From Nocardioides sp. cx-173 (GTDB taxonomy: Bacteria > Actinomycetota > Actinomycetes > Propionibacteriales > Nocardioidaceae): 64,000 bases of DNA. A model generated the notes under the pieces. That model did not search any database. It was not told where the DNA came from and was given only the letters and a program-made list of their open reading frames with translations. The DNA lies in NCBI RefSeq assembly GCF_021117365.1, contig NZ_CP088262.1, positions 3,350,501 to 3,414,500 of the forward strand, in the 5' to 3' direction. The stretch's first letter is position 1. Each line of letters begins with the position of its first letter. This document shows, piece after piece, positions 22,305-51,009 of the stretch. The position numbers and the translations under genes were made by a program.

Positions 22305-22310
22305 CGCAGC
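22305..22310. other. attL core of the integrated element
   Basis: CGCAGC, identical to 40543-40548 at the other end. Bases on each side differ (G/A here, T/T at the right end), so the shared core is exactly 6 bp. Left of it the sequence is cpaF coding; right of it, element DNA. A short core is what large serine recombinases leave, and such a gene lies at the other end. The crossover dinucleotide within the core is not determinable from this sequence alone. Confidence 0.9.
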
Positions 22311-22342
22311 ACAAACCTGGCGACACCACCGACAAGAGCAAG

Positions 22343-22378
22343 AGGCCCCGGCCGGAGCTGCAACTCCGATCGAGGCCT
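22343..22378 (+). terminator. GC-rich hairpin in the left-end leader
   Basis: Inverted repeat AGGCCCCGGCCGGAG - CTGCAA - CTCCGATCGAGGCCT: a 15-bp stem with two mismatches and a 6-base loop. It lies 32 bp from attL and 32 bp before a short leader ORF. No T-run follows, so it may be a transcript-stabilising or attenuation structure rather than a simple terminator. Confidence 0.5.
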
Positions 22379-22410
22379 AAGCCCAACGTCCCCGAGGAGG
22401 ACGAAGAACC

Positions 22411-22458
22411 ATGACCACATCATCTCAGACCCCCACCCCATCACTGCGAGGCCGCTGA
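22411..22458 (+). CDS. 15-residue leader peptide candidate
   Basis: ATG at 22411 encodes MTTSSQTPTPSLRGR and stops at 22458 in TGATG, one base shared with the start of the next gene. A strong Shine-Dalgarno (GAGGAGG, 22394-22400) stands ahead of it, whereas the next gene has none of its own. The likely role is to carry ribosomes to the following start by coupled re-initiation, possibly with attenuation together with the upstream hairpin. Its short length and lack of known relatives make it a prediction from signal layout only. Confidence 0.45.
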   Translation: MTTSSQTPTPSLRGR

Positions 22459-23444
22459 TGCCGAGCAACCGGTGGGTACGCATGAACGGGCAAGAGGAGC
22501 TGCGCGCGAATCTGCGCGCGGCGATCAAGGAGGCAGGTCTCACGCAGTCGGGCGCTGCGGCCGCGGCGGGCGTGACGTACACGCACCTGACGGGCGGGCT
22601 GAAGGGAGACAACTGGCTCAAGCGGGAAGCGGTCGAGGCCCTCGCGAAGGTGTTGGGGACGGGATCGGCCGACCTGATGGGCGGCTCGATCTTCAAGGAG
22701 CAACGAGACCGCTACGCCGCTTTCGACCGCGCCCCTGACAGTGTCCTGGCCTGGCGCCAGGAGCAGGAGGCTGCCCAAACCCAGCGACTCGCGGATCTCG
22801 CGGAGGGACGAACGCGCGCCCTGTGCTGCGAGTGCGGGGCTCTGCGCACCTGCACAACTCGGGGCCTCTACCCGACCCCGGAGAACTCCTCGCCGGGTCC
22901 CCACGGGCGCTTCATCCGCACCCTGCACTGCTCGAGCTGCGACGCGCAGACCGTCCACGCGATCCTGCGGGCAGACGAGGACCGCGACTGCGCAGAGAAG
23001 TGGGACGCCGCACCAACCGCAAGCGACCTAGGCCGCAAGGAGCTGGACGAGCTGATCCAGAGGGTGACCAGCTTCGGCGTGGACATCCATCTGCGGCCCC
23101 GCGGGAAGAAGCAGCGCGCTCAGGAGTACGCCTGCCTCTACGAGTACGACGAATCCAAGTCACAGTGGCGCATCGAGGTCGATCCCAACATCCCGGTGCG
23201 GGCGCAGATCGAACTTCTGGACTACGCCTGGCGCAGCATCGCCATGAACGACTTCGGCGACGTCCAGTGGAACCCGAAGCAGGACGGCACCGTCCTGAAG
23301 CCGAGCGACTCCGGCTGGGCCCAAGCCACTGACGATCTCATGAGCGATCTCTCCCGCTTCCTCACACTCGAGCGGCGCCGACTGGTGCAACACGTCCAGG
23401 ACCAAGTGGCCGCAGCCAACTCTGACAGAGACGCGCAGGAATGA
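22458..23444 (+). CDS. element HTH/zinc-finger protein of unknown function
   Basis: 328 residues. N-terminal XRE-like helix-turn-helix (LRAAIKEAGLTQSGAAAAAGVTYTHLTGGLKGDNWLKREAVEAL), a Cys cluster (CCECGALRTC ... LHCSSCDAQT) that can bind zinc, and a C-terminal alpha/beta region (DELIQRVTSFGVDIHLRPRGKK ... DPNIPVRAQIELLDYAWRSIAMNDFGD). The last part is reminiscent of ImmA-type metallopeptidases in general layout, but the HExxH signature is absent. First large gene of the left-end operon, probably a regulator. Start taken at 22458 because of the TGATG junction; ATG at 22482 is an alternative. Overlaps the next gene by 4 bp. Confidence 0.6.
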   Translation: MPSNRWVRMNGQEELRANLRAAIKEAGLTQSGAAAAAGVTYTHLTGGLKGDNWLKREAVEALAKVLGTGSADLMGGSIFKEQRDRYAAFDRAPDSVLAWRQEQEAAQTQRLADLAEGRTRALCCECGALRTCTTRGLYPTPENSSPGPHGRFIRTLHCSSCDAQTVHAILRADEDRDCAEKWDAAPTASDLGRKELDELIQRVTSFGVDIHLRPRGKKQRAQEYACLYEYDESKSQWRIEVDPNIPVRAQIELLDYAWRSIAMNDFGDVQWNPKQDGTVLKPSDSGWAQATDDLMSDLSRFLTLERRRLVQHVQDQVAAANSDRDAQE

Positions 23445-23812
23445 GCACGACGGCCGAGGTCCCCATCGCCATCACCTGCCCGCCGTGGTGCGGCGGCGAC
23501 CACCTGATCGATCGTGACGACGGGACGCATGTCGCTGACCGCGGTGTATGGCACAACTCAGCGATCGTGGACACCTGGACCGGCGTACACGCTGACGGAC
23601 CGGACCCGATCGTTGTCCGTGTCCAGGGCTACCGCCATGACAATCCCGACCACCCCGAGGGCCCCGACCTCAGTCAGTGGCACGACGAAGTCGTAGTCGA
23701 CGGCGACGTGTATCCCGGCTTCATGAGCAGCGTGCAACTTCCTGCAGTGGATGCGCGCCGCCTCGGCAGGGCCCTGATCGCTGCCGCCGACATCTTGGAG
23801 GCTCAGTCATGA
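23441..23812 (+). CDS. DUF6907-like protein, copy 1
   Basis: 123 residues with the N-terminal signature TCPPWCGGDH (Cys-x2-W-Cys, then His) and RGVWHN, followed by strands (DPIVVRVQGYRHDNP) and a final helix VDARRLGRALIAAADILEAQ. This matches DUF6907-type proteins frequent in actinomycete phages and integrative elements; function unknown, possible zinc site. It is an apparent paralogue of the next gene, which it overlaps by 4 bp. Confidence 0.65.
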   Translation: MSTTAEVPIAITCPPWCGGDHLIDRDDGTHVADRGVWHNSAIVDTWTGVHADGPDPIVVRVQGYRHDNPDHPEGPDLSQWHDEVVVDGDVYPGFMSSVQLPAVDARRLGRALIAAADILEAQS

Positions 23813-24291
23813 GCGCGCCGACCTACGACCACGACGACCCCAGCAACGGCTACGAAGAGCCCGAAGAGACCCAGCTGCGGCTCAAGCTCGGCGTCCGTCC
23901 CACCTGGTACCGCGACGGCAAGCACGACCACCCGCACGCCCGCCCGTGCCCGACATGGTGCTGTCATGCCGACCGCCCCGGCGGGCACGACATCGAGAGC
24001 GATCACCCCATGACTCCCGAGCACTCGCTGGGCATTGCAGTCGATACGGTCGCGAGCCACTACGTCGGGGACCGCGAGAAGGTAGGCGACGGGTGGGTGG
24101 TCAACACCGCTCGGCTCTCCGCCGACCTCCAGCAGCTCGGCGATGGTGAGCCGCAGGTACAGGTCGCGCTGCATCACTACGTCGAGGGACGTCATCGCTG
24201 CGAGGAGCGCCTTCGGCTGAGCATCGAGGACGCCCGCGACCTCATGACCGCACTGAGGTACGTCATCGAGCTGGCGGACGACCAGCGATGA
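23809..24291 (+). CDS. DUF6907-like protein, copy 2
   Basis: 160 residues. After an acidic N terminus it has PCPTWCCHADRPGGHD, the same Cys-x2-W-Cys/His pattern as the upstream gene, and a matching C-terminal helix (LSIEDARDLMTALRYVIELAD). Strands between (QVQVALHHYVEGRHRCEERL) also align in order. The two genes look like a tandem duplication that has diverged. ATG start in an ATGA overlap with copy 1. Followed by a 136-bp gap with a GCCCGCC/GGCGGGC hairpin at 24331-24349. Confidence 0.6.
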   Translation: MSAPTYDHDDPSNGYEEPEETQLRLKLGVRPTWYRDGKHDHPHARPCPTWCCHADRPGGHDIESDHPMTPEHSLGIAVDTVASHYVGDREKVGDGWVVNTARLSADLQQLGDGEPQVQVALHHYVEGRHRCEERLRLSIEDARDLMTALRYVIELADDQR

Positions 24292-24427
24292 CCCCCCTCT
24301 ATCCCCCGCCCGGACGAGACCCACCGAGCCGCCCGCCGCGATGGCGGGCACACACGCAACGTCGCGCCGCAGGACCCGACGCGACGTGCTGCCCGTCCGT
24401 ATCCCCCACCTAGAGAGCGCTGCCCAC

Positions 24428-25258
24428 ATGTCCACACGTGAAGATCCCGTAACAGACCCGCCCACCGTCGAGATCCTCGACGTCTCCCCCGCCCTAGCCG
24501 AGACCTGGCTGAGCCGCAACCCGAACAACCGCAACCTACGCAAGGCCGTGGTCGACGGGTACGCCCGCGACATGGAAGCCGGACGCTGGCGCCTCAACGG
24601 CGAGACCGTGAAGTTCTCCACCACCGGCCAGCTCTACGACGGTCAGCACCGCCTCAACGCCATCGTGCAGTCCGGCATGACCGTGCCCATGGTCGTGATC
24701 CGCGGTCTGGCGGACGACGTGATGCCGACCGTGGATGCGGGCGCCAAACGGTCCTACTCCGACGCGCTCAAGCTCTCGGGTGAGGAGAACACCTCCACCC
24801 TGGCCGCGGTCGCCCGACGTGCGGTGATGTGGGAGCGCGGGATGCGCACCAACACCGGAGCCATCCGGCCGACACCGCTCGAGATGGACGACTTCCTCGC
24901 GCGCCACCCAGAGATCCGCGCCTCAGCCGACCTCGCAGCACGCCTAGCGTCCCGAGAGAGGCTGCCGGCCAGCGTCATCGGGCTGTGCCACTACCTGTTC
25001 GCACAGATCGACCCGGACGCGGCGACGTGGTTCTTCCTGCGGGTCGCGGATGGCGACGGGCTAGCGGCCACGGACCCGATCGCTGTCCTACGCAGCCGGG
25101 TGACCAGGCTGCGCGTCAGCGGGGGCCGGATCAACGAGACCGAGGGCCTCGCGCTCACGATCCGGGCGTGGAACGCGCACAGAGACGGGTCAACCAGGAC
25201 GAAACTGCAGATGCCTAAGGGTGGCCTGACGAACGAGAACTTTCCGACCCCGAAGTAG
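24428..25258 (+). CDS. ParB/sulfiredoxin-superfamily-like phage protein
   Basis: 276 residues. The N-terminal half has VEILDVSPALAETWLSRNPN, then VVDGYARDMEAGRWRLNGETVKF, and the signature LYDGQHRLNAIVQSG followed by VPMVVIRGL, a ParB-like nuclease-fold pattern seen in many actinobacterial phages and elements. The C-terminal part is helical (MDDFLARHPEIRASADLAARLAS). Role in the element (partition, replication or DNA modification) is not known. A second, more classical ParB homologue is at 39712-40521. Confidence 0.6.
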   Translation: MSTREDPVTDPPTVEILDVSPALAETWLSRNPNNRNLRKAVVDGYARDMEAGRWRLNGETVKFSTTGQLYDGQHRLNAIVQSGMTVPMVVIRGLADDVMPTVDAGAKRSYSDALKLSGEENTSTLAAVARRAVMWERGMRTNTGAIRPTPLEMDDFLARHPEIRASADLAARLASRERLPASVIGLCHYLFAQIDPDAATWFFLRVADGDGLAATDPIAVLRSRVTRLRVSGGRINETEGLALTIRAWNAHRDGSTRTKLQMPKGGLTNENFPTPK

Positions 25259-25308
25259 CAACGAAGATACGATCCCAACTCCACCCTGCGGATGAGAGAC
25301 TCGGCGGC

Positions 25309-25785
25309 GTGCTCACCCACCTACTGAGCTTTGCGCCGCCTACGGTGACTGCCACGCCGCCCTGGGTGACCCCAGTGGTCGGCCTGGCCGGAGTGCTGTT
25401 CGGCGCTCTAATCGCTGGGGGCTTCCGCCTGCGTGGAGACAAAGTTGCGAGGCGCGCAGAAGCTCAGCGAACAGCACTCAACGACCTGCAAGAGGGTGTG
25501 CTCGATCTACGCACCGCCCTGCGCAACTACGGCAATGATCTTCCCCGGCCCAGCAATAAGCTCACGAAGGCCGTGGACTTAGCCAACGGCAGGGTTGACC
25601 TGCTCGTTCATCGCATCGAGCATCCTGAGCTACGTCACTCGGTGGCGACCTGGAGGACGATCGCACAGCAGTACTGGCTGGATGATCAGTCGGTCAGCAT
25701 CAACGCTGAGGACGTCGCATGGAGGACCGTCCACTACAAAGCGGGAGTTGCGCTCAGCCAGCTCGACCGGCTTCTACTTGAGTGA
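25309..25785 (+). CDS. single-pass membrane protein of unknown function
   Basis: 158 residues: a short N terminus, one membrane helix (VTPVVGLAGVLFGALIAGGF), a basic stop-transfer (RLRGDKVARRAE) and a helical cytoplasmic part of about 115 residues (VLDLRTALRNYGNDL; KAVDLANGRVDLLVHRIEHPEL). GTG start. Small membrane-anchored helical proteins of this design occur beside phage-defence genes, but nothing specific is recognisable. It overlaps the convergent STAS-like gene by 12 bp, marking the boundary between the left operon and the cargo block. Confidence 0.5.
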   Translation: MLTHLLSFAPPTVTATPPWVTPVVGLAGVLFGALIAGGFRLRGDKVARRAEAQRTALNDLQEGVLDLRTALRNYGNDLPRPSNKLTKAVDLANGRVDLLVHRIEHPELRHSVATWRTIAQQYWLDDQSVSINAEDVAWRTVHYKAGVALSQLDRLLLE

Positions 25786-26076
25786 GGGCGTCTTGAGCCG
25801 GTCGCCAAGTCCGTGAGCCCGCGCTGACTCCTCTAGGTCCACGACGAAATCCGGCCCCGAGCCGGTCACCTCAAGACGAGCGGCACCGCCCTCCCGGAGG
25901 AGGGCTCGAACGAACTCGTCGGCAGAGGACGGGCTGGCGGAACGCAGGTCTCGGGCGTTCAGCACGATCACGAGCCCTCGTGTCGGACCAAGCTCGGACA
26001 CGAGCTGACGCACGCTGGAGCGGCCACCGATCAAGCGGGGCAACTTCAACTCAAGCTTCGTTTCCAAGAGGCTCAC
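25774..26076 (-). CDS. STAS-like (DUF4325-type) protein
   Basis: 100 residues, alpha/beta, with SVRQLVSELGPTRGLVIVLN and SADEFVRALLREGGAARLEVT, matching the STAS-like DUF4325 family. These are found next to GHKL-type ATPases and may form a partner-switch pair analogous to anti-sigma/anti-anti-sigma modules. GTG start at 26076. It follows the GHKL ATPase gene, 95 bp away in the same direction. There is no obvious STAS phospho-serine. Confidence 0.55.
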   Translation of the reverse strand: MSLLETKLELKLPRLIGGRSSVRQLVSELGPTRGLVIVLNARDLRSASPSSADEFVRALLREGGAARLEVTGSGPDFVVDLEESARAHGLGDRLKTPSLK

Positions 26077-26171
26077 CGCCTACCATTTCCTTCGTCGTTG
26101 CGTCAAGCATAGTGGCAACACGCTGTGTGACACAGTAGGCCAACGCATGAAATTCCGTCGACATTCCGACG

Positions 26172-26987
26172 TCAGCACGGCATGGCGCCCTGCAGGATCG
26201 TTCCTGGCATCGGGATGCGGCTGGACGCTGGATACAACCCGAACTGGTTGACGCGCACAGCATCCCGGCCGCTGGCCATATGGATCGTGCCCCCCTCGCG
26301 GGTGACGACCTCCTTGGTTCTGTACACACCACGGCCACGGCCCGCCTCGTCGATCCGGGAAAGTCCACCCGCCTCGAATAGGTCCCTCATCACGTCGCCG
26401 GCCCTCTCATACCCGCGCCCGGCAAGAGGCTCGACGAGCCCCACCCCGGCGTCTCCAATGGCGAACGACACGCGAGTGCCGCCGTGGGTGGTAATCGCAG
26501 CAATGTAGCCGTGTTCACGCCCCGAATGGTCTGGGACGTTAGCCCCGATCTCACAGATCCCCTTGTGAATTGCCTCCGCAGACCTTGTCCCTCGCAGTCG
26601 CTCCTCCACAAGCGTTGCCAGCGCCGGTGGGGCATCCTTGCCGTCGAACCGCTGCAGTTCCAGCAGGTATCCCTCACGACTCCACTCGTTGATTGACGGC
26701 AGGTCATGGATGCCGTCAAAGTCTTCGATCAGCGTCCCCAAGTGCATCCGGCTCAGATAGCGGCCTCGCCTAGTATCGGCCGGCCCGATTAACTGCGGGG
26801 TTCGGCCGATCTGCCACTGGCTCTCGACGAAGGTGGCAATCGCCACTAGACCGGCGGGTTCGGTCCAGTCAAGAGCCCGAAGGTTCACGAAAGCCACGTC
26901 GGACTCGGGATCGCCGGGCTGTAGGCATGCCTGGATAGAGCCGGCACCCAATTGATGCGGCGCGACGAAGTCCAACGGAACAGGCAC
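26172..26987 (-). CDS. GHKL/histidine-kinase-like ATPase
   Basis: 271 residues. A STAS-like N terminus (VAFVNLRALDWTEPAGLVAIATF, residues 31-53) is followed by a GHKL ATPase domain: N box ICEIGANVPDHS (N150, D153), G1 box IGDAGVG (D179), and a G2-like GRGRGVYRTKEVV ahead of EGGTIHMASG. There is no phospho-acceptor His domain and no transmembrane segment, so it is a stand-alone ATPase like anti-sigma kinases or MutL/Hsp90-type proteins. Encoded 95 bp upstream of the STAS-like gene and divergent from the Beta-family gene across 170 bp. The pair could be a signalling switch or part of a defence module. Confidence 0.65.
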   Translation of the reverse strand: MPVPLDFVAPHQLGAGSIQACLQPGDPESDVAFVNLRALDWTEPAGLVAIATFVESQWQIGRTPQLIGPADTRRGRYLSRMHLGTLIEDFDGIHDLPSINEWSREGYLLELQRFDGKDAPPALATLVEERLRGTRSAEAIHKGICEIGANVPDHSGREHGYIAAITTHGGTRVSFAIGDAGVGLVEPLAGRGYERAGDVMRDLFEAGGLSRIDEAGRGRGVYRTKEVVTREGGTIHMASGRDAVRVNQFGLYPASSRIPMPGTILQGAMPC

Positions 26988-27157
26988 AGGTCACCACCCA
27001 ACCAGACGACACTATGCGGGCAGTCGGTCCGGTCGGGGCGCGACCCGCCAAGAGCCTTTCCGAACTTGCTGACTCTTTGAGGGCTCCGCCGGCCCTATTC
27101 TCAGGTCGCGAGCGGATGTCGACGAACTGTGAGAGCCTCAAACCCGATTGAAGGGAA

Positions 27158-28246
27158 ATGCTCATGGACAACTTTGGCCCAGATGTCTACGTTCCGACTT
27201 TGTGGACGCGGCGCGGCGAACGCACAGCGCTTGCCAGCCTTCCCGCAGCCGTGCGCTCTGCGATCAGGCCCCTGTTCGTCGTTGCCCCGATTGAGTTCGA
27301 CTTTGACACTGAAGCCCCAAAGAAGACCTTGTCTGAGCACATGGCGAGCCTCCCGAAAGACCTGGTTGCTTGCTGGGGGATCGGGGACGTATTTGCGGAC
27401 TTGAGCTACTTCGACGACGCACCTATGCCTAGTGGTCAGCATCCTCTGGACTGGTTATCCGAGGAGTGCGCCGCACTTGGAATGACCGTAAGCCCCGTAG
27501 TGAGCCATTCCAGCACGCCGGCCTATCGGGCGGCGGCCGGAGCCGCGGCGGCTCGCTCAGATGCTGGCGTTTGCCTTCGACTCACAATTCCTGAGTGGCC
27601 TTCCGCAACCGGGACGAGCGCGATTGATGACCTGTTGGACGACCTAGGGTGTGCACCCGAAGACGCGCATCTGATCCTCGACCTTGAGGAAGATGTCGGC
27701 GCGACAGCACGGATTGCTGCCGCCAGTGAGATACGCACGCTCCCGTACCTGGATGATTGGCGGTCGCTTGTCGTGACTGGCACCGCGATTCCCGAGACCA
27801 TGCCGCAAGGCTCTGGGCTACACGTACTGCCTCGCAGCGAATGGGCTACTTATCTGTCCCTGCGCTCTCTCGTGAATCCCTTGCCACGTCTACCAACGTT
27901 CGGTGACTACGCAGTCGCAAGCACTAGCCCTGGCGCAGACGTCAACCCGCGATTCATGAACATCAGTGCCACTTTGCGCTACACGGCCACTCAAGATTGG
28001 CTCGTGGGCAAGGGGGGCCTGTGGAAGGGAAACGGCGGCAAGAGCCTCGGAGCTGCCGCCGTGCCGCCCGCCGCCGCCTTGATTGCGGGACACGCCGATT
28101 TCCTCGGGTCGGACCATTGCGATTTCGACGAATGGCTCGTCTCGGTCGCGGCCGGCACGGGTGGATCGAACCCCGAAGCCTGGCGGCGATACGGCACGCA
28201 GCATCATCTGCAGTTCGTCACCGAGCAGATCGCCAGCTTGCCCTAG
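27158..28246 (+). CDS. Beta-family (PF14350-type) protein
   Basis: 362 residues, lower GC than the host genes. N-terminal DVYVPTLWTRRGERTALASL followed by PLFVV, then repeated barrel-like strand-helix units (DVFADLSYFDD; VSPVVSHSSTPAYR; GVCLRLTIPEW; AHLILDLEEDVG; RSLVVTGTAIPETM) is the Beta-protein family pattern, a TIM-barrel-like protein known from phages and mobile elements. Members are often adjacent to sce7726-type proteins, and here such a gene follows tail to tail (29-bp overlap). Biochemical function unknown. ATG at 27158 with AAGGGA ribosome site; 27164 is a second possible start. Confidence 0.65.
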   Translation: MLMDNFGPDVYVPTLWTRRGERTALASLPAAVRSAIRPLFVVAPIEFDFDTEAPKKTLSEHMASLPKDLVACWGIGDVFADLSYFDDAPMPSGQHPLDWLSEECAALGMTVSPVVSHSSTPAYRAAAGAAAARSDAGVCLRLTIPEWPSATGTSAIDDLLDDLGCAPEDAHLILDLEEDVGATARIAAASEIRTLPYLDDWRSLVVTGTAIPETMPQGSGLHVLPRSEWATYLSLRSLVNPLPRLPTFGDYAVASTSPGADVNPRFMNISATLRYTATQDWLVGKGGLWKGNGGKSLGAAAVPPAAALIAGHADFLGSDHCDFDEWLVSVAAGTGGSNPEAWRRYGTQHHLQFVTEQIASLP

Positions 28247-28787
28247 CCCTCAGCTTCATTCGAACTGCGGTTCGTAGTTCGTGTAGGGGCACCTCGTCGG
28301 CAAGCCGTGACCAGATGGCCGTCCGAGGCTTACCGCGCACGCCTACATCCAGTCCTCGGACGGCCAACTCGTCGAGCGCCTCATCTCGCCACAGAAGCTG
28401 TACAAGGGAGTGCGCATCGATGCCCGGGTTCGGTTGGGGTTCGAGCCTGTCGACAAGGTCCACCTGTTCGCCGTCCCACCGAGCTTCGATCAACCCCCAC
28501 CACGCCGGGAGTAACGGTTGGGCGTGTCCCACGTGGTTCTGCGCCACTACTAGCGTGGCGTGATCCAGCACACGAGAGTAGACCTCTACTTGCGCAGGCA
28601 GGCGTTTGAGAGTGTCTTGCGCTGACTTCAGCTCGTACCCCGAAAGTGCCCCATTGACCACGGCCACATCCACCCGCACTTGGCCGCAGAGCCCGAGCTC
28701 GTCCACCAGCAACGTACTTGCGCGATCGGCCGCATGTTCCGCCTCAAGCCGGCCGCGGAGGGCTTCTCGAACGTGGGCGTCGCGCAT
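28218..28787 (-). CDS. sce7726-family protein with PD-(D/E)XK nuclease-like motif
   Basis: 189 residues from the start MRDAHVREAL, which is how this family typically begins. The core VRVDVAVVNGALSGYELKSA (D40, E52, K54) fits the PD-(D/E)XK phosphodiesterase motif II/III, followed by LKRLPAQVEVYSRVLDHATLVV, like Mrr/archaeal-resolvase-type nucleases. sce7726 proteins are commonly paired with sce7725/Beta-type partners; here the partner is convergent rather than co-directional. Alternative start at 28814. Probably acts on DNA; a defence or restriction role is a hypothesis. Confidence 0.65.
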   Translation of the reverse strand: MRDAHVREALRGRLEAEHAADRASTLLVDELGLCGQVRVDVAVVNGALSGYELKSAQDTLKRLPAQVEVYSRVLDHATLVVAQNHVGHAQPLLPAWWGLIEARWDGEQVDLVDRLEPQPNPGIDAHSLVQLLWRDEALDELAVRGLDVGVRGKPRTAIWSRLADEVPLHELRTAVRMKLRARASWRSAR

Positions 28788-28937
28788 GTTCGGCAGTCTA
28801 GGCACAGGAGACATGGCGCTCCCCGCGAGTCTCCGCGGGTGAGTCGTTAGACGCCGTGGGACAATCGCGATTCTCACGCGGCCCCAGACCACGGACGCAC
28901 AAGGATGGCACGGCCACCAGCGGCGCCGTTGACTCCC

Positions 28938-33569: not shown

Positions 33570-33679
33570 CTGTCAGGGCCCCGTTGGGGCTGATTGGTCG
33601 ACCGAACAAGGAATGCCCTCCCCCGCGGTCCTCCTCGGCGCCCCCGGGAGGGAGGGCGAACGGGATAGGGTCGGCGCCC
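33570..33679. other. hairpin-rich gap beside terS
   Basis: 110-bp gap between terS and the next upstream gene. It holds GCCCC-GTT-GGGGC (33578-33590) and GCCCTCCC ... GGGAGGGC (33615-33622 / 33650-33657, 8-bp perfect stem). It is the only sizeable gap in this part of the leftward operon. It could be a terminator, a processing site, or the packaging (pac/cos) region recognised by the small terminase. Nothing proves which. Confidence 0.4.
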
Positions 33680-34291: not shown

Positions 34292-34468
34292 TCAGATCAC
34301 TCCAAACTTCGTGACTACGCCGCGCTCAAGGAGCGCGGCGGCTTCCTGTGGGTCCACCCAGTCCGGCAGGGTTTCGCCCTGCGTGAAGATCCAGGCACGT
34401 CCGCTCGGGTCCTTGAGTGCGCAGTCCTTGTCCACCTCGTAGTGGACGGCGCCTCGCTGCAGGATCAT
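34292..34468 (-). CDS. element protein, small paralogue A
   Basis: 58 residues: VHYEVDKDCALKDPSG, then IFTQGETLPDWVDPQEAA, then LLERGVVTKFGVI. It shares the F-x2-GE-x-LP-x-W ... A..LL..G.V pattern with its neighbour at 34465-34644. ATG in a 4-bp overlap with that gene. Small proteins of this layout occur in phage structural regions, but no function can be stated. Confidence 0.55.
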   Translation of the reverse strand: MILQRGAVHYEVDKDCALKDPSGRAWIFTQGETLPDWVDPQEAAALLERGVVTKFGVI

Positions 34469-34644
34469 GCGCCGACCTCCACGATCAGCCCCTCCGAGAG
34501 CAACCGCTGCGCGTTCTCGGAGGTGATCCACCACGGCAGGACCTCGCCGCGGCGAAAGACCGTCACGTTGGCGCCTCCGATGTCACGCGGCGCGGTGAGC
34601 TGGATCGTGGGGCTCGCGCACCGGTAGGTCTTCGTCTCGGTCAT
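34465..34644 (-). CDS. element protein, small paralogue B
   Basis: 59 residues: MTETKTYRCASPTIQLTAPR, then VFRRGEVLPWWITSENAQ, then LLSEGLIVEVGA. Paralogue of the 58-aa protein next door. ATG in an ATGA overlap with the stop of large paralogue B; its own stop overlaps the next start. Function unknown. Confidence 0.55.
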   Translation of the reverse strand: MTETKTYRCASPTIQLTAPRDIGGANVTVFRRGEVLPWWITSENAQRLLSEGLIVEVGA

Positions 34645-35147
34645 GCGTGGCCCCCAGCGAGTGCTGCGGCACGCATGCGGGGTGACTGGAAGGACTGCGG
34701 GTAGACGGCCTCGCCAGGCTGGGAGCGCCGCAGCTCGTCCGGGTTCAGTCCGTTGACCCACGCGTTGACGCGATCCCGATAGGCCGCAAGTCCGGGGTGA
34801 TCGAGCACCGCGTACTTCACCCGCTCGTGCTCGGCCACGGCGCGCTCGATCCAGTCCAGCAGCTTCGCCGTGTCGCGTTCAGATGCCGCCGCGTGCCGCA
34901 TCGTGAACGGCAACTCCTTCAGCATCTCGGGGCTGAGACCGCTAGCTGTGAACGGAGGCAGATCGCCGCCTGCAAACAAAGTCGGGGCGGCCTGGCGCTC
35001 CGTGGCGGCCCCAAACACACCGGGATAGCTTGCCGAGAGGTCGGTGACATACGGGTTGGGGCCGTATGTGTCGACTCCTAGGAGGGCGCCGTTCCATCCT
35101 GCGGAGTAGGCGCCGGCGAGCTCGAGGCTCATGAACATCTGACCCAT
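34641..35147 (-). CDS. element protein, large paralogue B
   Basis: 168 residues from ATG at 35147: MGQMFMSLELAGAYSAGWNG, then VDTYGPNPYVTDL, TLFAGGDLPPFTASGLSPEML, RHAAASERDTAKLLDWIERA, VLDHPGLAAYRDRVNAWVNG, and a short tail. Paralogue of 33680-34291 but without its long acidic C terminus. The order large B - small B - small A - large A shows two related pairs in mirror order. Unknown function. Confidence 0.55.
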   Translation of the reverse strand: MGQMFMSLELAGAYSAGWNGALLGVDTYGPNPYVTDLSASYPGVFGAATERQAAPTLFAGGDLPPFTASGLSPEMLKELPFTMRHAAASERDTAKLLDWIERAVAEHERVKYAVLDHPGLAAYRDRVNAWVNGLNPDELRRSQPGEAVYPQSFQSPRMRAAALAGGHA

Positions 35148-35148
35148 G

Positions 35149-35592
35149 TCAGTTCTCCTTGCTGGATTGCGTCGCCGCAGCGAGCACGAGGTTCTTGTCG
35201 TATGTCCACCGACCAGCGAGCTTCCGGCCACCCAGTTCGTCAGCTCGAGTGCGAACCCAGCGGGTAGAGATCTTCATGAGCTGAGACGCCTCCTCGGTGT
35301 CGATCCGTTCGGACACTTCTGACTGTGCCGAAGTGGGACCACCGCGGAACTCCGTTACCGGAACTGCGGAAGCCTCCACCGCCCGGCGCATCACATCGAG
35401 CAGGGAGGACAGCCGACGACTAGGGGAGATGCCGTCCCGAACTTCGGCGGCTTGGACACCCCGCAGAGTCACCCGATAGACATCGCGCAGTGCTTGGCCT
35501 CGAAGCACCAACGCGTCACCAAACACCTGGACCTCCGGAGCATCAACCAGGACGCCGGCAGACGCGAGCGCCTTGGCATTGCGCCCACTCAC
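35149..35592 (-). CDS. MerR/excisionase-like HTH protein
   Basis: 147 residues from GTG at 35592 (overlapping the previous stop, GTGA). The C-terminal ~50 residues form an excisionase-type winged helix: ERIDTEEASQLMKISTRWVR followed by ADELGGRKLAGRWTYDKNLV. The N-terminal part (APEVQVFGDALVLRGQAL) is unassigned. In serine-recombinase elements a small DNA-binding protein often works as the recombination directionality factor; this is one candidate. A regulator of the structural genes that follow is the alternative. Confidence 0.6.
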   Translation of the reverse strand: MSGRNAKALASAGVLVDAPEVQVFGDALVLRGQALRDVYRVTLRGVQAAEVRDGISPSRRLSSLLDVMRRAVEASAVPVTEFRGGPTSAQSEVSERIDTEEASQLMKISTRWVRTRADELGGRKLAGRWTYDKNLVLAAATQSSKEN

Positions 35593-35726
35593 GACGCGGG
35601 CCCTTCGTGGTCTGGGCAGTACCAGTCCCCGCCGTCGAAGGTGCGGACGTGCCTGGCATCGATCATCAGACCCGCCGAGCACCCCGGCTGACTGCAGTCG
35701 GCCCACGCGATTCCCAAGTCCCTCAC
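35589..35726 (-). CDS. 45-residue Cys/His-rich protein
   Basis: Small ORF with GTG at 35726 overlapping the upstream stop (GTGA) and its own stop overlapping the next start (GTGA). Sequence VRDLGIAWADCSQPGCSAGL continues MIDARHVRTFDGGDWYCPDH and ends EGPAS. The C-x4-C ... C-x2-H spacing suggests a zinc ribbon. Double 4-bp overlaps make it convincing despite its size. Function unknown; probably nucleic-acid binding. Confidence 0.6.
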   Translation of the reverse strand: MRDLGIAWADCSQPGCSAGLMIDARHVRTFDGGDWYCPDHEGPAS

Positions 35727-36001
35727 CGGGTCCCCCGCTCGTCGGGGCGCAGGCACTCGTCAGTGATGGTCTCGAGCACGTGGAGGACGTCAGTGAGGCG
35801 ATCGGCCAACGTTTCGCGGTCGATGAGCAGTTCACCCTGGGTCGAGAGCAGGTCGTAGCGCACGCGGTCTGCGAGGCTGTCGAGCCGGTGCGGATAGCAC
35901 TCGAGGATGCTCCCGTCCGTGCCACGTCGGCAGGTACGGCACGTCTCGCGCGTGCGTGGCTGAGCGCGTCGGCTGGCTAGATCGATGACGGTCGCGCTCA
36001 T
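35723..36001 (-). CDS. small phage-type protein with CxxC motif
   Basis: 92 residues from ATG at 36001 (MSATVIDLASRRAQPRTRET). CRTCRRGTDGSILEC may bind a metal, followed by a long helix with acidic/leucine heptads (LADRVRYDLLSTQGELLIDR, then LADRLTDVLHVLETITDECL). The 4-bp overlap with the wHTH gene upstream and the zinc-ribbon gene downstream places it in the same early operon. Unknown function. Confidence 0.55.
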   Translation of the reverse strand: MSATVIDLASRRAQPRTRETCRTCRRGTDGSILECYPHRLDSLADRVRYDLLSTQGELLIDRETLADRLTDVLHVLETITDECLRPDERGTR

Positions 36002-36615
36002 GCGGTCCTCCTGCGGGAGGTCGGGTGGTTGGCGCAGTCCTCGGGGCACGGGCTCGCTTCGTCATGCCACTGGCAGCCGCGAGACGAGGCGGCGACCGGG
36101 TGCTCTGCGATCTCCTCGTAGCTGCCAAGAACCTGACGATCTGCGGCCGGCGAGACGCGTGAGGACGGTGCCGGGTCACTGAGGTCAGGCGTCCTATAGG
36201 TAAGGGGGGACGCCATGTCCCCCCTTGTGGGGGGTACCTCTGACCCGTAAGGGGGGACAAACGCGCGATACGTAATCAGGCACGCTGTGTCCCCCCTTAC
36301 GTTCATCGCCTGGAACGCGGCGGGGCGTCCGAAGGTGCCCGGATTGACCTTGCTGAGATAGCCCTTGGCCACCAGCCGCTGGGTCAACTTCTTCGCGTTC
36401 GTGGGCGAGGTGTGGAGGGCTCGAGCGAGGTAGTCGTAGTGCAGGGCGAAGTGCCCACGCTCGTCCATCCCCCGGCTGCCCGGGCGCCGCTCTCCGTCGA
36501 CGTACTCGGTGGCCAGGTGCACGACGGTCAGCAGGAACAGCCTCTCGACAGCGCCGAGATCGTCGTTGGCGAAGGCATTGCGGACGATGACAGGACGCCG
36601 GTCAGCTCGGCTCAT
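35998..36615 (-). CDS. winged-helix protein containing inverted G6-box repeats
   Basis: 205 residues. The N-terminal half is a winged helix: AVERLFLLTVVHLATEYVDG, then ERGHFALHYDYLARALHTSP and NAKKLTQRLVAKGYLSKVNP, followed by a low-complexity hydrophilic C-terminal half with WHDEASPCPEDCANHP. The architecture recalls phage replication initiators or O-like proteins. Inside its own coding sequence (36200-36300) are four copies of an AAGGGGGGAC box in inverted pairs, as in initiator genes that contain the origin. ATG in an ATGA overlap with the DUF2742-like gene. Confidence 0.55.
   Translation of the reverse strand: MSRADRRPVIVRNAFANDDLGAVERLFLLTVVHLATEYVDGERRPGSRGMDERGHFALHYDYLARALHTSPTNAKKLTQRLVAKGYLSKVNPGTFGRPAAFQAMNVRGDTACLITYRAFVPPYGSEVPPTRGDMASPLTYRTPDLSDPAPSSRVSPAADRQVLGSYEEIAEHPVAASSRGCQWHDEASPCPEDCANHPTSRRRTA
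36200..36300. repeat. four G6-box inverted repeats (origin or operator candidate)
   Basis: Two inverted pairs of the same box. Pair 1: GTAAGGGGGGAC (36200-36211) and TGTCCCCCCTT (36216-36226). Pair 2: GTAAGGGGGGACA (36247-36259) and TGTCCCCCCTTAC (36288-36300), a perfect 13-bp inverted repeat with a 28-base loop. A weaker copy, GTGGGGGGTAC, lies at 36227-36237. Spacing between box starts is about 40-47 bp. Such an array fits binding by the winged-helix protein whose gene contains it. Confidence 0.7.
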
Positions 36616-36974
36616 GCGACATCACCCCGAGACCACTCGGCCCACTCGCGCTCGATCTCGTCAGCGAGTCGCGGATCTGGTCGGAAGCCGGCACCCGTCC
36701 AGGACTCACGATGTGCTGCGGCGCGTGCGAGGTACTCGGTATCTTCGGTCGCCTTGAACGCCTCACGCTCGAAGCGGATCTCGGCTTCCAGGCGCTCGAT
36801 GAGGTTGTCCCCGTCGATCGCCCAGCTTTCGGCCGCGCGGACCACCGATGCCCACTTCTCCGGCCCCTCAGGCAGTGCCAGCCACTCGGGGGTGCCGTAG
36901 GCCGGTCCGGGCTTGGGGATGCGTGAGAAGTAGCCGTAGGCCCACGCTCGCCGGGCCTCCGCCGGGCTCACCAC
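36612..36974 (-). CDS. DUF2742-like phage protein
   Basis: 120 residues: VSPAEARRAWAYGYFSRIPK, then YGTPEWLALPEGPEKWASVVRAAESWA, matching the DUF2742-type pattern (GTPEWLAL...W...V.AAE) known from mycobacteriophages, and an acidic C-terminal helix. GTG start at 36974 (36971 equally possible); overlaps its upstream neighbour by 7 bp and the winged-helix gene by 4 bp. Unknown function. Confidence 0.6.
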   Translation of the reverse strand: MVSPAEARRAWAYGYFSRIPKPGPAYGTPEWLALPEGPEKWASVVRAAESWAIDGDNLIERLEAEIRFEREAFKATEDTEYLARAAAHRESWTGAGFRPDPRLADEIEREWAEWSRGDVA

Positions 36975-37273
36975 AGTCCCCGGCCGGGGTCAGGCTGATC
37001 GTCGTTCAACCCGACTGGTGGGTTGAACGCGACGTCCACCCGCGGCGCACTGGAAGACCGGGAAGCCGGTGCCCCAGTGATCTCGACGGCATACCCACGC
37101 CGCTCGGCCAACGCCACCAGATCGTCGAGCCGCCGGGGCGAGGTGACCCATCGGCGGGTCCGCGTGTTCCAGACAGGTGGTCGGCCGGCGCTCTGCGTGT
37201 GCAGCTCGCGTACCGAGTACCCGCCGAACTCCACACAGTTCTGGTTGATGTGAACAATCTCGAGGCGCTTCAT
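36968..37273 (-). CDS. hypothetical element protein
   Basis: 101 residues: MKRLEIVHINQNCVEFGGYS, then a tryptophan pair (PPVWNTRTRRWVTS) and RRLDDLVALAERRGYAVEIT, ending in a Pro-rich tail. Small alpha/beta protein; no family recognised. ATGA overlap with the upstream gene places it in the same operon. Confidence 0.5.
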   Translation of the reverse strand: MKRLEIVHINQNCVEFGGYSVRELHTQSAGRPPVWNTRTRRWVTSPRRLDDLVALAERRGYAVEITGAPASRSSSAPRVDVAFNPPVGLNDDQPDPGRGLW

Positions 37274-37470
37274 GCGGCCACCTCCCGGCAGACCGGGCTC
37301 ATCTCAAGCGCGACGGACCTCCGCGCCGTGAGTCGATGAGAGCAGCGCGTGCAGCGGACGATGTCCGAGTCGGGGACTACACTGAGATCGTTCTTGATCG
37401 CCGTCGAGACGCTTGCCGCTTCCACCTCTGCCGGGGTGGGGCGGCTTTCTCGTTCCCTACGCGGCTGCAT
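37270..37470 (-). CDS. DUF6011-like zinc-ribbon protein
   Basis: 66 residues: an N-terminal basic/Pro-rich tail, then IVRCTRCSHRLTARRSVALE and SPVCREVAA. The C-x2-C ... C pattern with HRLTA and SVA matches DUF6011-type small proteins widespread in actinobacterial phages. Start ATG at 37470 overlaps the previous gene by 14 bp. Function unknown. Confidence 0.55.
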   Translation of the reverse strand: MQPRRERESRPTPAEVEAASVSTAIKNDLSVVPDSDIVRCTRCSHRLTARRSVALEMSPVCREVAA

Positions 37471-37690
37471 CTGGCCCCCCGAGCCGCATCGGGAGAGGCC
37501 GAAGCAGTGACGCGATGCGATCGCATTGTGCCGCGGTCAACGGCGGGGCTTCGGCCACCGTCTTCCGCACGTAGTCAGCAAGACGCTCGGCAGCGAGGGA
37601 TCGTCGAGCATCTACCAGTTCTGGATCGCGCTCATCGCGGGATCGGGAGAGGGCGGCAACGCGGCCTCGGTGGTGGAGTGTCTGAGACAC
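37457..37690 (-). CDS. hypothetical element protein (RIxxLLRP type)
   Basis: 77 residues: RGRVAALSRSRDERDPELVD, then LADYVRKTVAEAPPLTAAQC and DRIASLLRPLPMRLG. I recognise this pattern (DPELVDARR, VAEAPPLT, RIA.LLRP) from many actinomycete integrated elements, though it has no known role. GTG start with a GGAGGAAG ribosome site, after a 103-bp gap that may hold a promoter for the genes down to 35149. Confidence 0.55.
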   Translation of the reverse strand: MSQTLHHRGRVAALSRSRDERDPELVDARRSLAAERLADYVRKTVAEAPPLTAAQCDRIASLLRPLPMRLGGPDAAA

Positions 37691-37793
37691 TGTCTTCCTC
37701 CATGCATGGCTGTTAAGCCTCTGCTTGGAGGGGATTTATCGCGGCCCGCGAAACGCGCGGCGCCCGATGCAACAAACCTTAGCAGCATCCGAG

Positions 37794-38354
37794 CTAGGCA
37801 GCCCGGTCAACTCGGGCCGCGAAGGTCCGGAGATCCACTTCTCGATGGCCGATCCGCCAGAACGTGGATGCAACCTTCTGCACGGTTTCCGACCGGAAGA
37901 CTCGACGGTAATCGCAGTGGCCGCACAACATCGGTATGCGCTCTCGCGTTTGCGACCTGTCCATCGCAATGCGATCGTTCACGCGCCGTGCCGCCTCAAA
38001 GTCCCCGGCAGCGACGGCCGCTGCTGCGGCCTGCAAGTCGCGACGCTCCGCTTCACGGTCACGAACCTGATCTCCCACTAAGAAGTGACTGTTCTTCTCT
38101 TTCGCCTGAGGAGTAAGGGGGATGAGGAAGCCGTCGCCCGTGAGGTAGTTCAGATCCCAACCCCAGTACTCGGTGCCCCTCTGGTCTTGCACCTCGTCGC
38201 TTACAGCAAAGGACCCGACCAGCCACGGCCAAGGCTCGTGCGCGCAGTAGATCCCGACGCGCGGCCAATCTGGATCTGTGGATCGTCGGGGCAGATGTTC
38301 GTGATCCCAAGGTGATCCGAGCAGCTTTGGCACAACGAACTGGAAGCCGGTCAT
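37794..38354 (-). CDS. hypothetical element protein with CxxC
   Basis: 186 residues: VVPKLLGSPWDHEHLPRRST, then GIYCAHEPWPWLVGSFAVSD and GWDLNYLTGDGFLIPLTPQA, a coiled helix (DREAERRDLQAAAAAVAAGD), then IPMLCGHCDYRRVFRSETV near the end. ATG overlaps the recombinase stop by 4 bp, so it is coupled to the integrase; this makes it another candidate for a recombination accessory or directionality factor. No homology recognised. Confidence 0.5.
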   Translation of the reverse strand: MTGFQFVVPKLLGSPWDHEHLPRRSTDPDWPRVGIYCAHEPWPWLVGSFAVSDEVQDQRGTEYWGWDLNYLTGDGFLIPLTPQAKEKNSHFLVGDQVRDREAERRDLQAAAAAVAAGDFEAARRVNDRIAMDRSQTRERIPMLCGHCDYRRVFRSETVQKVASTFWRIGHREVDLRTFAARVDRAA

Positions 38355-39715
38355 GCCTCAGCCCTCCACTCGATGCGGACACTGTCCGGGTCAAACGGCT
38401 GATGCCCCCGCTCGGGCGGGTGCAGCGTGATGGTCATGAGGGCCGAGATGACGGCCCGTTTCTGCTGGAGATCGCAGGCCGCCCAGGTCTGCGCAACATC
38501 GTCGGCGGTCACGAGCGGCGTCAGCACGTCAGCCTCTACCGCGTTGCGCATCCTCGCTTCCACCTTGTCGAGTTCGACGCGTAGGCGGTCGCTGGACTTC
38601 CTCACGGCACCTAGCGTCAGCAGACCCTCCTCGAGACCGATTGCAAGGTCGTTGATCCGCTCCTTGATCGCCTCGGCCGTTGCGCGGTCGCTCTCCAGGT
38701 CCGGCGTGCTCGGCTCGCTGAGAAGCTCGACGGCGTCCGGTCGCGACAGGCGTGCGACCACCACAGCCTCAACCAGCTCGTCTACCGGGTCGGCCTTCCG
38801 CGAGATGCACTTGCTGGCTCGGCAGATGTAGAGCCGCTTACCGTGACGGCTGTGCCCGGTAGCGACGTCGGAGCCGCACTTCCAACAGTGAGCGATAGCC
38901 GGGAGCAGGTGCTTCCTGGCGGTCGATTGGGTAGTCCGGCGTTCCGGTAGTGAGAGCAGGGCGACGGCAGCCTCATGGGTCTCCTCGTCGACCAGTGCCT
39001 TCCACGTCGCCGGTCCCACGACTTGACCCTTGTAGGCGCGAAGCCCTGCGTAGCGCGGGTTCTTGAGCATCGATCTGACGTTGTCGTGGCGCCAAGGGTT
39101 GCCCGCCGTCGTGGTCACGCCCAACTCGTTCCACTTACGAGCTATCCCCTTGAGCGATGCGCCAGCCAGAAGATCCGAGTACGCGTCGCGGACCAGCGCG
39201 GCCTCGTCGTCGATGATGGTCTCGCCGTCTGAGCCGTACCCGAACGCGCGTCGCCCACCGGCCGGCCGGCCTTGCTCGGCCGCCTGTTGCTGGGCGCGCT
39301 TCTGACGTGCCCCCTTGCGCTCTACTTCTCCGCGAGCGACAGATGCCAGGATGCGGCCGACGAGCCGGCCGGCGTCGTTGGAGAGGTCGATGTCCCCGGT
39401 GACGGTGACGATGCGGAGACCAGTGCGCTGCGTGACCTCGATTAGGTGCTCGAGGTCCGTCAGCTTCCGGGTCAGGCGGTCAACATGCCAGGCCACCAGC
39501 ACCTGCGCATCTCCGCGCTCGATCGCTTCCAGCATGGCCGTGTAGACCGGCCGCGGCTTGCGGGAGGAAGCAGAGGTGTCGTTCTCCTCCCAGACCCGGA
39601 CAATGTCCCAGCCGCGCTCCTCGCAGAGTCGTAGACAGTCCTCGCGTTGGCGAGTGACGGCGGCACCAGCGCCAGTCTTGTCCAGACTCTGGCGAACGTA
39701 GACGAACGTGGTCAA
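38351..39715 (-). CDS. int: large serine recombinase (integrase)
   Basis: 454 residues. Resolvase-type catalytic domain with nucleophile Ser10 in VYVRQSLDKTG, and the conserved AWHVDRLTRKLTDLE; a recombinase domain (AFGYGSDGETIIDDEAALVR ... GNPWRHDNVRSMLKNPRYAG); a zinc ribbon (C277, C280, C298, C303); and a C-terminal coiled-coil region. This is the enzyme expected to have joined the element to the cpaF site through the 6-bp core. TTG start at 39715 in a TTGA overlap with parB. It lies 0.8 kb from attR, normal for such elements. Confidence 0.92.
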   Translation of the reverse strand: MTTFVYVRQSLDKTGAGAAVTRQREDCLRLCEERGWDIVRVWEENDTSASSRKPRPVYTAMLEAIERGDAQVLVAWHVDRLTRKLTDLEHLIEVTQRTGLRIVTVTGDIDLSNDAGRLVGRILASVARGEVERKGARQKRAQQQAAEQGRPAGGRRAFGYGSDGETIIDDEAALVRDAYSDLLAGASLKGIARKWNELGVTTTAGNPWRHDNVRSMLKNPRYAGLRAYKGQVVGPATWKALVDEETHEAAVALLSLPERRTTQSTARKHLLPAIAHCWKCGSDVATGHSRHGKRLYICRASKCISRKADPVDELVEAVVVARLSRPDAVELLSEPSTPDLESDRATAEAIKERINDLAIGLEEGLLTLGAVRKSSDRLRVELDKVEARMRNAVEADVLTPLVTADDVAQTWAACDLQQKRAVISALMTITLHPPERGHQPFDPDSVRIEWRAEA

Positions 39716-40521
39716 CGGGCTTCTGCCTTCACTGGCTCGGCGAACACTCGAGCCAGTGAATCGAGGACCGTAGCCCTCATCTCCGGAGAAGCGTCTATGG
39801 GTGTGACGCCCTGGCTCTCATTTACCGACTCCATCGTCTCGGGCCACATGACCACCGTGGTCAGGTAGTCGAACACCGCCCTCCGGAAGAGCGCCACCGC
39901 CTCCGGAGGGCCCTTGTGTTCGGCCTCGAAGGACATCCGCGCCTGCGTCAGCGCCATGACTACCTCGGGCACGGTGATGCCATAGCTCAGAGCGTTGACG
40001 ATCAAGGCGAAGACAGCAACGCGCACATTCTCGAGTTGCTCCTCCAGCTCCGCAGTCTGCGCTTCCGCCTCTTCGCGGCCCAGAGTTGGCGTGTCCAAGT
40101 TGGACACTTCCTCGCCTCTTACGGCGCCGACCGTCGAAGGTGAGCAGCCGATCCGGCGCGCAATGGCGCGGTCTGAGTCGTCGGGACGCCGAACGATCTC
40201 GGTTCTGATCAGTTCGCGACGCTGTTCCCGCGTCAGGTGCCGGCGCGCACAGTTCAGCCTCAGTGCCAGATCCACTGCCGCGGCGTCGTCCTCGACGTCG
40301 ACCTCGGTACGTGGGCACTCGATGCCCAGCTCGGCCGCGATCGCAGCCCGGTTGTTGCCGTCGATGATGCGCCCGTGCTGATCGACCGTGATCGGTACGA
40401 GCACGCCGTGCGCGGCGATGTCCTCGCGTAGCGCGTCGAGCTGGTCGGCGGTGAGCGGCGGCATGGGCTGGACGATCGTCGGCTCAGACTCACCTTGTGG
40501 GATATGGACAACTGGTCGCAT
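39712..40521 (-). CDS. parB: ParB-like partition/nuclease-fold protein
   Basis: 269 residues. ParB N-terminal domain: MPPLTADQLDALREDIAAHG, VLVPITVDQHGRIIDGNNRA and a following helix, then a helix-turn-helix (DRAIARRIGCSPSTVGAVRG), and a helical C-terminal domain. Starts only 21 bp inside attR and ends in the integrase start, so parB-int would be read from the cpaF promoter outside the element. ParB-type genes next to serine integrases occur in actinomycete integrative elements, where they may aid maintenance or regulate excision. Confidence 0.8.
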   Translation of the reverse strand: MRPVVHIPQGESEPTIVQPMPPLTADQLDALREDIAAHGVLVPITVDQHGRIIDGNNRAAIAAELGIECPRTEVDVEDDAAAVDLALRLNCARRHLTREQRRELIRTEIVRRPDDSDRAIARRIGCSPSTVGAVRGEEVSNLDTPTLGREEAEAQTAELEEQLENVRVAVFALIVNALSYGITVPEVVMALTQARMSFEAEHKGPPEAVALFRRAVFDYLTTVVMWPETMESVNESQGVTPIDASPEMRATVLDSLARVFAEPVKAEAR

Positions 40522-40542
40522 GTCTGTATTCTACTCATGTTT

Positions 40543-40548
40543 CGCAGC
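40543..40548. other. attR core of the integrated element
   Basis: CGCAGC, the right copy of the 6-bp core. To its right begins cpaF coding sequence (TCGAAGACC... on this strand, encoding EEVFEL on the other). Joining cpaF sequence right of this core to cpaF sequence left of 22305 restores an uninterrupted reading frame. The element-side flanks give the deduced attP. Confidence 0.9.
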
Positions 40549-40938
40549 TCGAAGACCTCCTCGGCCGACACCACCCGGTCACCACCGGGGATCGCCGCCG
40601 CCAGGCAGTTCAGCATCGTGGTCTTGCCCGCCTGCGTCCCGCCGGCGACCAGGATGTTGAGCCCCGCGCGCACCGAGGCCTCGAGGAACGCCGCGGCGCG
40701 CGGTGTCATGGAGCCGAGCTCCACCAGGTCCGAGAGCCGCGCCGCACGCAGCACGAACTTGCGGATGTTGACCGCCGAGAACCCACGGCTGATGCCCTCC
40801 AGCACGACGTGCAGCCGGTGCCCCTCGGGCAGCATCGCGTCCACGAACGGCTGGCTGATATCGATGCGGCGACCACTGGACTTGAGCATCCGCTCGACGA
40901 GCTCGTCGACCTGCGCGCGGGTCAGCATCAGGTTGGTC

Positions 40939-41025
40939 AGCTCGTGACGCCCGTGCCGCGCGACGAAGACCCGCGACGGGTCGTTCACCCAGACCTCCTC
41001 GACCGCCGGGTCGTCCAGGAACGGC
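40939..41025. repeat. 87-bp segment duplicated at 43588-43674 (copy in cpaF)
   Basis: Part of the cpaF 5' fragment (codons about 82-111, FLDDPAVEEVWVNDPSRVFV and following residues) that also occurs at 43588-43674 in the same orientation with 85 of 87 bases identical. The two copies bracket the cpaF start and the hipBA pair (2.6 kb). Confidence 0.9.
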
Positions 41026-41409
41026 TGCAGCGGCCCGAACCCCGACACCCGCGCGACCAGCTCGCCGACCACCGCGCCCACGTCGGCCACCGGCGCGACC
41101 TGCCCGGTCAGGCTCCGCTCGTCGTGCTCGCGCACCACGCTCTCCGCGATCCGGCGTACGACGACCGCGTCGCGCTGCGGGTCCACGCCCTCGCGACGCA
41201 CCAGCGCCCGCACGTGCTCATCAAGCTGGTCGACCAGCGCACCGTGCGCGTCGGACTGCGTCATCGCCATGACAGTCCCGCTTCCCGAGTCGGGTTCCTG
41301 ACCAGAACGTAAGCCCCTCCCGCCCCCCTACACCACGGTCAGTCCTCAATCTGTGGATGAACCGGACTCCTGAGACAGATGTGACCTGCGATCCCAGTCG
41401 AGCGCGTGT

Positions 41410-43494: not shown

Positions 43495-43587
43495 TCGTCC
43501 TCCCAGAGGGGGAGGTTCGCTGGAGCCCCAGCGACGGAAGCTGATTCTCAGCAGATTGTTGCGACGTCATGGTGTCGGCCCTTGGCA

Positions 43588-49334: not shown

Positions 49335-51009
<1,675 letters not shown>

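Follow-up and report, generated by a model that had tools for sequence, protein, structure and literature searches.

Integrases of several separate lineages split the Tad pilus motor gene cpaF in Nocardioides

The region considered here (the window) is a stretch of 64,000 bp from Nocardioides sp. cx-173 (C1:3350501-3414500), whose genome measures 4,445,725 bp and forms a single contig. In it cpaF, the gene of the motor ATPase of the Tad pilus, is interrupted by an integrated element of 18,238 bp, a small phage-related element bearing the marks of recombination by a large serine recombinase (LSR). The case is one of many. Serine integrases of several separate lineages, together with some tyrosine integrases, occupy cpaF in most instances, but also tadB and tadC and, twice, comM. 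The suggestion of the initial annotation of this window, that integration at cpaF may be a family habit, thus applies more widely, as several separate integrase lineages show it.

The element in cpaF of Nocardioides sp. cx-173

The element (22311..40548) interrupts cpaF at codon 242. The hexamer CGCAGC is present at both ends, at 22305-22310 and 40543-40548, with 18,238 bp between, and the flanks joined in silico yield an intact CpaF of 417 residues plus the stop codon, with the start at 41270 and the lowest stop-codon base at 21779. The right half of the gene (40543..41270, reverse strand, codons 1 to approximately 242) contains the Walker A motif GGTQAGKT. The left half (21779..22310, reverse strand, approximately codons 242-417 and the stop codon) is the C-terminal part, in which the initial annotation placed Walker B and the His box. 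The joined protein matches solved CpaF chains (8rkd, 2.1e-62). In the G+C profile the element lies below the adjoining Tad genes. Precise insertion into cpaF had been claimed in the initial annotation and is confirmed. The span given there, 22305..41270, starts correctly at the left repeat; its end is the cpaF start codon, whereas the element ends at 40548.

The same annotation held that excision would restore cpaF. Indeed, the joined frame gives the full protein, and in relatives cpaF is unbroken, with its parts ordered as predicted; no relative with a different order was encountered. The closest named cpaF loci share 93% of residues (Nocardioides sp. 503) and 94% (N. lijunqiniae). Of the 60 bases of joined DNA that cross the junction, 59 agree with the uninterrupted cpaF of N. 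lijunqiniae. The junction is spanned in 80 of 80 named cpaF loci fetched; since these were the best 80 among the 371 located, whole genes are favoured among them.

The site at codon 242 is common to five genomes, namely that of the window (G000), G007, G012, G049 and G083, whose integrases form one clade (100/100). The crossover dinucleotide of the window element is probably the CT of the leucine codon 242, at 22308-22309 within the left shared core (22305..22310) and at 40546-40547 within the right shared core (40543..40548). The overlap dinucleotide is the same on both sides of the element in each genome, CT in G000, G007, G012 and G083 and TT in G049, and the shared core at the crossover is 6 bp in the window element and 12 bp in G049. 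A centre at the crossover gives the best arm symmetry in G007 (6 of 8), in G083 (5 of 8) and, as a tie, in G012 (5 of 8); in G000 there is a tie at 4 of 8. Agreement of the overlap is a prediction of serine integrase recombination, and arm symmetry alone is weak evidence of it. A short identical overlap with attP and attB otherwise unlike, as expected of an LSR element, is observed here; exact restoration of cpaF upon excision, as expected of regulated gene integrity, is observed in silico.

The integrase gene (38351..39715, reverse strand) encodes 454 residues with the Resolvase catalytic domain (PF00239, 8.7e-30) and the Recombinase domain (PF07508, 3.7e-18), and matches the integrase family phrog_95 (3.8e-98). 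It fits the definition of LSR, proteins of about 450-700 residues. A serine recombinase had been noted near the right end. It is indeed near, not at, the end of the element, 827 bp from the junction, because a ParB-like gene (39712..40521, reverse strand) lies between the integrase and the cpaF 5' half, on the same strand. A scan of IMG/VR with this integrase confirmed no relative.

Split cpaF genes across the genus

CpaF was used to search 118 genomes of the genus, an even sample of a larger group, and many of the matches were partial; genome and site counts were made by hand from the search tables. A substantial cpaF orthologue was found in 104 genomes. It is full length in 68, split by an element in 32, frameshifted in two (G060, G080) and cut by contig ends in two (G048, G076), the last four being left out of the 32. 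The remaining 14 genomes comprise four with remnants or a contig-end piece and ten without cpaF. Among the 68 full-length genes, that of G106 has an internal TGA, and G004 has a second, split copy.

The split positions, taken from codon-registered junctions (a single one in G063, G079, G091 and G117), correspond to about 15 sites: residues ~90, 94, 97, 141-152, 166, 172, 214, 217, 242, 246-247, 278, 303, 317, 329 and 337. In G107 cpaF is split at two places. Elements were deduced from the junctions where the cpaF halves are on different contigs (G014, G021, G067, G079, G082, G116) and also in G104, where the halves are apart. The 5' half was not seen in G070, nor the 3' half in G099, among the split genomes.

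An LSR lies at most 0.9 kb from the junction in 29 of the 32 split genes, two have a tyrosine integrase (G024, G105), and beside the split cpaF of G096 no integrase was found. The distance is at most 130 bp in 24 of 28 LSR-bearing junctions, a set to which G117 and G091 do not belong. In 16 of these 28 the LSR is co-directional beside the cpaF 5' half, and in the other 12 it is antisense beside the 3' half. Promoter capture was therefore rejected as a general rule, because of the antisense cases. No stop codons were observed in the 66 aligned cpaF pieces scanned (60 from element-split loci), and because the aligned halves are free of them, the split genes could still be restored.

The 14 other cpaF elements considered contain 133 open reading frames (ORFs) of at least 110 residues, picked by codon-position G+C. 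The domains found in them are Resolvase (17), capsid (3), terminase large subunit (2), Prim-Pol (2) and HTH_17 (4), and restriction-modification, GmrSD, NACHT and DndB proteins are represented by one or two ORFs each. Our impression from these domain counts is that the elements are not complete phages but resemble phage satellites or defence islands.

In G104 (L070, L071) a single contig holds both cpaF halves, on opposite strands and at a distance of 1.33 Mb; an inversion may be the cause. The distances between cpaF pieces are far above those of other genomes in G022 (~135 kb), G068 (~228 kb) and G107 (~130 kb). In G114 (L076) a partial 5' copy of cpaF (2155-2673) is found upstream of the full-length copy (7743-8999), the ~5 kb between them holding DndB-like and helix-turn-helix (HTH) genes, and a partial 5' copy is likewise located upstream of the full-length gene in G172 (L243). 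These partial copies could be scars, or elements restoring the gene.

Origin and turnover of the insertions

Of the 107 matches to PF07508 in the genus, 97 were fetched and 10 were not; 84 of the 97 are in the LSR tree. Label changes on this tree may be gains or losses. Targeting of cpaF requires 15 changes, at least 11 of them on well-supported branches, and all Tad and comM targets taken together require 19, at least 13 of them on such branches. Targets are clustered on the tree compared with shuffled labels, as would follow from a separate clade for every site; the exception is site 303, reached by three separate LSR lineages. On this tree the LSRs at cpaF derive from separate lineages, and integrases of two superfamilies, serine and tyrosine, are involved. 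With the separate LSR lineages, the tyrosine integrases and comM, the situation is convergent in the sense used for mobile genetic elements (MGEs) in competence genes.

The split state is scattered over the cpaF tree of 112 rows and needs 26 changes, at least 19 of them on starred branches. With shuffled labels the mean was 28.0 changes, and 100 of 500 shufflings were as low as 26. The intact rows of this tree are the 80 named loci described above, whereas the split rows come from a different sample. Given the scatter of the split state and the pieces without stop codons, the insertions look young and repeatedly gained; they would be lost by excision or by death of the lineage.

Other targets

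The tadB gene is split beside an LSR in three genomes (G023, G025, G080) and tadC in four (G029, with one junction only, G043, G075, G082). In G025 and G117 an LSR adjoins a split cpaF paralogue, a gene that was not searched for systematically. The comM gene is split in two of 116 genomes, G051 and G079, at the same residue, and the adjoining LSRs pair in the tree at 94/98. In G015 (L247), a genome without this cpaF, comM is full length and has an LSR at ~0.6 kb on its upstream side.

The census of 107 LSRs is distributed accordingly: 30 at split cpaF, two at a second split cpaF, three at tadB, four at tadC, two at the cpaF paralogue, one at a cpaF remnant and two at comM. Thus 42 are at Tad-type genes, or 44 including comM, and four more are within the same elements. 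Among the 53 other fetched LSR loci, which include four second recombinases located within elements of cpaF or tadC, the largest group with a common flank beside the LSR has three members.

Insertions outside the genus

An order sample of 147 genomes, 33 of them from the genus, and a class sample of 118 genomes were considered. Among the matches listed, where weak partial matches may be missed, few cpaF splits occur outside the genus. An LSR adjoins the split gene in G147 from genus g7 of the same order (residues 304/299), G223 (92/91), G317 (91/88; 5' piece 39% alike) and G251 (291). Possibly, cpaF is split in G337 and G253 as well. The order sample adds two broken cpaF genes within Nocardioides, in G240 (residue 331; its LSR is 96% alike to that of G116) and in G227 (decayed).

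Genus g7 has 60 LSR matches in 38 genomes, with 37 full-length cpaF and one split. LSRs at split cpaF number 30 of 107 in Nocardioides versus one of 60 in g7 (Fisher p 6e-06). The intact cpaF of g7 is thus not explained by scarcity of LSRs, as 60 matches are available in it.

A scan of IMG/VR with CpaF yielded two contigs, L152 and L153. Only L152 was counted as independent, because the integrase piece of L153 is identical to that of G107. L152, a provirus with a tyrosine integrase and a portal gene, carries cpaF residues 7-171 at its edge.

Gene content of the window element and neighbouring genes

Apart from the integrase and the ParB-like gene, the element encodes an HTH regulator with a DUF6315 domain (22482..23444, forward strand; PF19836, 1.9e-14; HTH_31, 1.4e-05, just below the cut-off; weak matches to phage repressors), whose start codon was read by hand. 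It is followed on the forward strand by a phage-family protein (24341..25258; phrog_5931, 2.9e-77) and by a Beta protein, a candidate defence gene similar to PD-Lambda-2_C (27158..28246; PF14350, 1.2e-54; PADLOC PD-Lambda-2_C, 9.2e-24). On the reverse strand there are a protein weakly similar to the terminase large subunit (28938..29876; phrog_13702, 5.6e-05) and a tail tape-measure-like protein of 906 residues without a Pfam family (29861..32581; phrog_305, 3.6e-11; tape-measure chain 6v8i, 3.1e-04).

Downstream of cpaF, the genes tadB-tadC-flp-tadE had been annotated. Domains identify tadB (20925..21779, T2SSF), tadC (19987..20928, T2SSF) and tadE (19382..19774, PF07811, 3e-10), all on the reverse strand, whereas flp (19774..19968, reverse strand) is a small protein without a Pfam family, assigned by position and size only.

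On the upstream side of cpaF, the DNA resembles that of the closest named relatives as far as ~41385, where the similarity ends, and a HipA-like kinase and an HTH gene are located directly upstream at 41410-43166. Beyond this HipBA-like module there is a 93-bp copy of cpaF (43582-43674; source 40933-41025; 95.7% identical). A 44-bp direct repeat, 93% identical, occupies 49576-49619 and 50425-50468.

Possible role of the insertions

In Micrococcus luteus, passages of PMC4322843 describe tad genes as absolutely required for transformation, and passages of PMC8467076 place TadA1/CpaF among the proteins essential for it. MGEs are found in comYC, comFA, comK and comM and, in passages of Croucher et al. 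2016 (PMC4774983), are argued to prevent their own deletion by transformation; pneumococcal prophage sites that inhibit transformation figure in parts of a 2025 paper (PMC12637031). By analogy, we infer that the Tad/Flp pilus, through which M. luteus takes up DNA, has this role in Nocardioides too. An element splitting the pilus motor ATPase would then, while integrated, keep element-free DNA out of its host, and without such DNA the element could not be deleted by homologous recombination; upon excision cpaF would be restored and the cell would become transformable again. We give about even chances to the proposal that the elements in cpaF disable transformation and thereby avoid being cured, as an actinobacterial counterpart of the comYC, comK and comM cases. 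The broader proposal, a genus-wide arms race over Tad-pilus transformation, in which the Tad operon is the main landing site of serine integrases and reversible insertions outpace speciation, is tenable, though somewhat more doubtful. The two comM insertions best separate the proposed escape from transformation from an explanation by phage receptors, considered below.

Several observations weigh against the proposed escape from curing. Among the literature matches listed, we found no report of natural transformation in Nocardioides. An accumulation prediction, which is our own reading of the curing model and was examined by counting LSRs alone among MGEs, failed, with a mean of 0.53 other LSRs per genome both for split and for full-length cpaF (p 0.67). 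The uptake channel gene comEC shows no insertion in the one domain searched in the 118 genomes, and comM is rarely split. Insertion sites lean to conserved DNA, as a neutral model predicts too. Finally, no excision event was seen in these data.

The most probable alternative is that cpaF is a safe harbour. The gene is long, conserved and dispensable, so that integrases settling there survive, and loss of the pilus needs no benefit. This is possible, but we consider it rather unlikely. It agrees with the DNA of the sites being slightly more conserved than random positions (0.876 versus 0.851, in a test that treats positions as independent), and with an LSR that is sister to the LSR of site 246 and splits the cpaF paralogue of G025 at an approximately matching place. 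However, cpaF is split in 32 of 104 genomes, against three for tadB, four for tadC, two for comM and none for comEC and uvrA, these controls being unmatched to cpaF for dispensability and DNA conservation together. The comEC domain (270 residues) was found in 116 of the 118 genomes, whole in 113, and has no insertion in any of them; uvrA is full length in 112 and partial in six, and no insertion in it was seen among the 118. Moreover, the cpaF paralogue was seen split just twice, albeit without a systematic search, the comM insertions reach beyond the pilus, and genus g7, rich in LSRs, does not show the cpaF pattern.

Superinfection exclusion is improbable. In this case the Tad pilus would be a phage receptor, and its removal would shield the host from competing phages. 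Tad pili serve as phage receptors in Caulobacter, and several elements carry phage and defence genes, including the PD-Lambda-2_C-like gene of the window element. On the other hand, we know of no Tad-dependent actinophage, and comM, split in two genomes, encodes no surface structure.

Least probable of all is a regulated switch (regulated gene integrity), with excision timed to restore the pili when the host or the element needs them, a hypothesis of the initial annotation: restoration would be exact and in frame, the aligned halves have no stop codon, and tad transcription may reach those 16 of 28 LSRs that are co-directional downstream of the cpaF 5' half, but 12 of 28 are antisense beside the 3' half, no excision, circle or regulation was seen, the window element yielded no candidate directionality (excision) factor, and the many sites and many integrases speak against one evolved switch. 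Although a pilus switch is possible and compatible with the anatomy of the element, the set of about 15 sites, three Tad genes plus comM, and two integrase superfamilies fits better with recurrent parasitism of a DNA-uptake machine.

Significance and comparison with known systems

If elements in cpaF do protect themselves from curing, natural transformation would be indicated as an active process in a large genus of soil bacteria, with a genomic marker for it, and the idea of chromosomal curing, documented for Firmicutes and Proteobacteria in the parts of the literature considered, would be extended to Actinomycetota. The insertions also provide, within a single gene, about 15 natural pairs of integrase and attB, useful for studying how serine integrases change targets. 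Even if the insertions are neutral, the fact that, where the sampled species have kept the pilus motor gene, it is split in about one third of them calls for caution in the annotation of Tad systems. Among the literature matches listed, none links cpaF or Tad genes to integration sites.

The closest known systems are the prophages and islands of competence genes. According to passages of PMC4774983, integrative elements there also interrupt transformation genes, comM is a target in both cases, and convergent integrases occupy different places in one gene, comFA. The difference is that the present insertions affect mainly the Tad/Flp operon, and that the host is an actinobacterium. One gene has about 15 sites, compared with one or two per gene in the passages of PMC4774983 that concern them. 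In a word search of the main text of that paper, 'tad' and 'Actinobacteria' have 0 occurrences.

The prophage in comK and the skin element in sigK are examples of regulated gene integrity, or active lysogeny. They share with the cpaF elements a serine integrase, in-frame interruption and expected precise restoration. Unlike these single domesticated elements with their timed excision, the cpaF elements are many and separate.

The integrase of the window element belongs to the same family as actinophage LSRs such as gene 96 of Mycobacterium phage Kumao, which it matches over 98% of the length. However, this best-ranked match is only 41% identical, and all 903 matching records are below 60%. Finally, the cpaF elements resemble phage satellites and phage-inducible islands in their small size and, in some of them, in the Prim-Pol, capsid or terminase genes near the integrase, whereas the window element has just the weak terminase-like and tape-measure-like matches.

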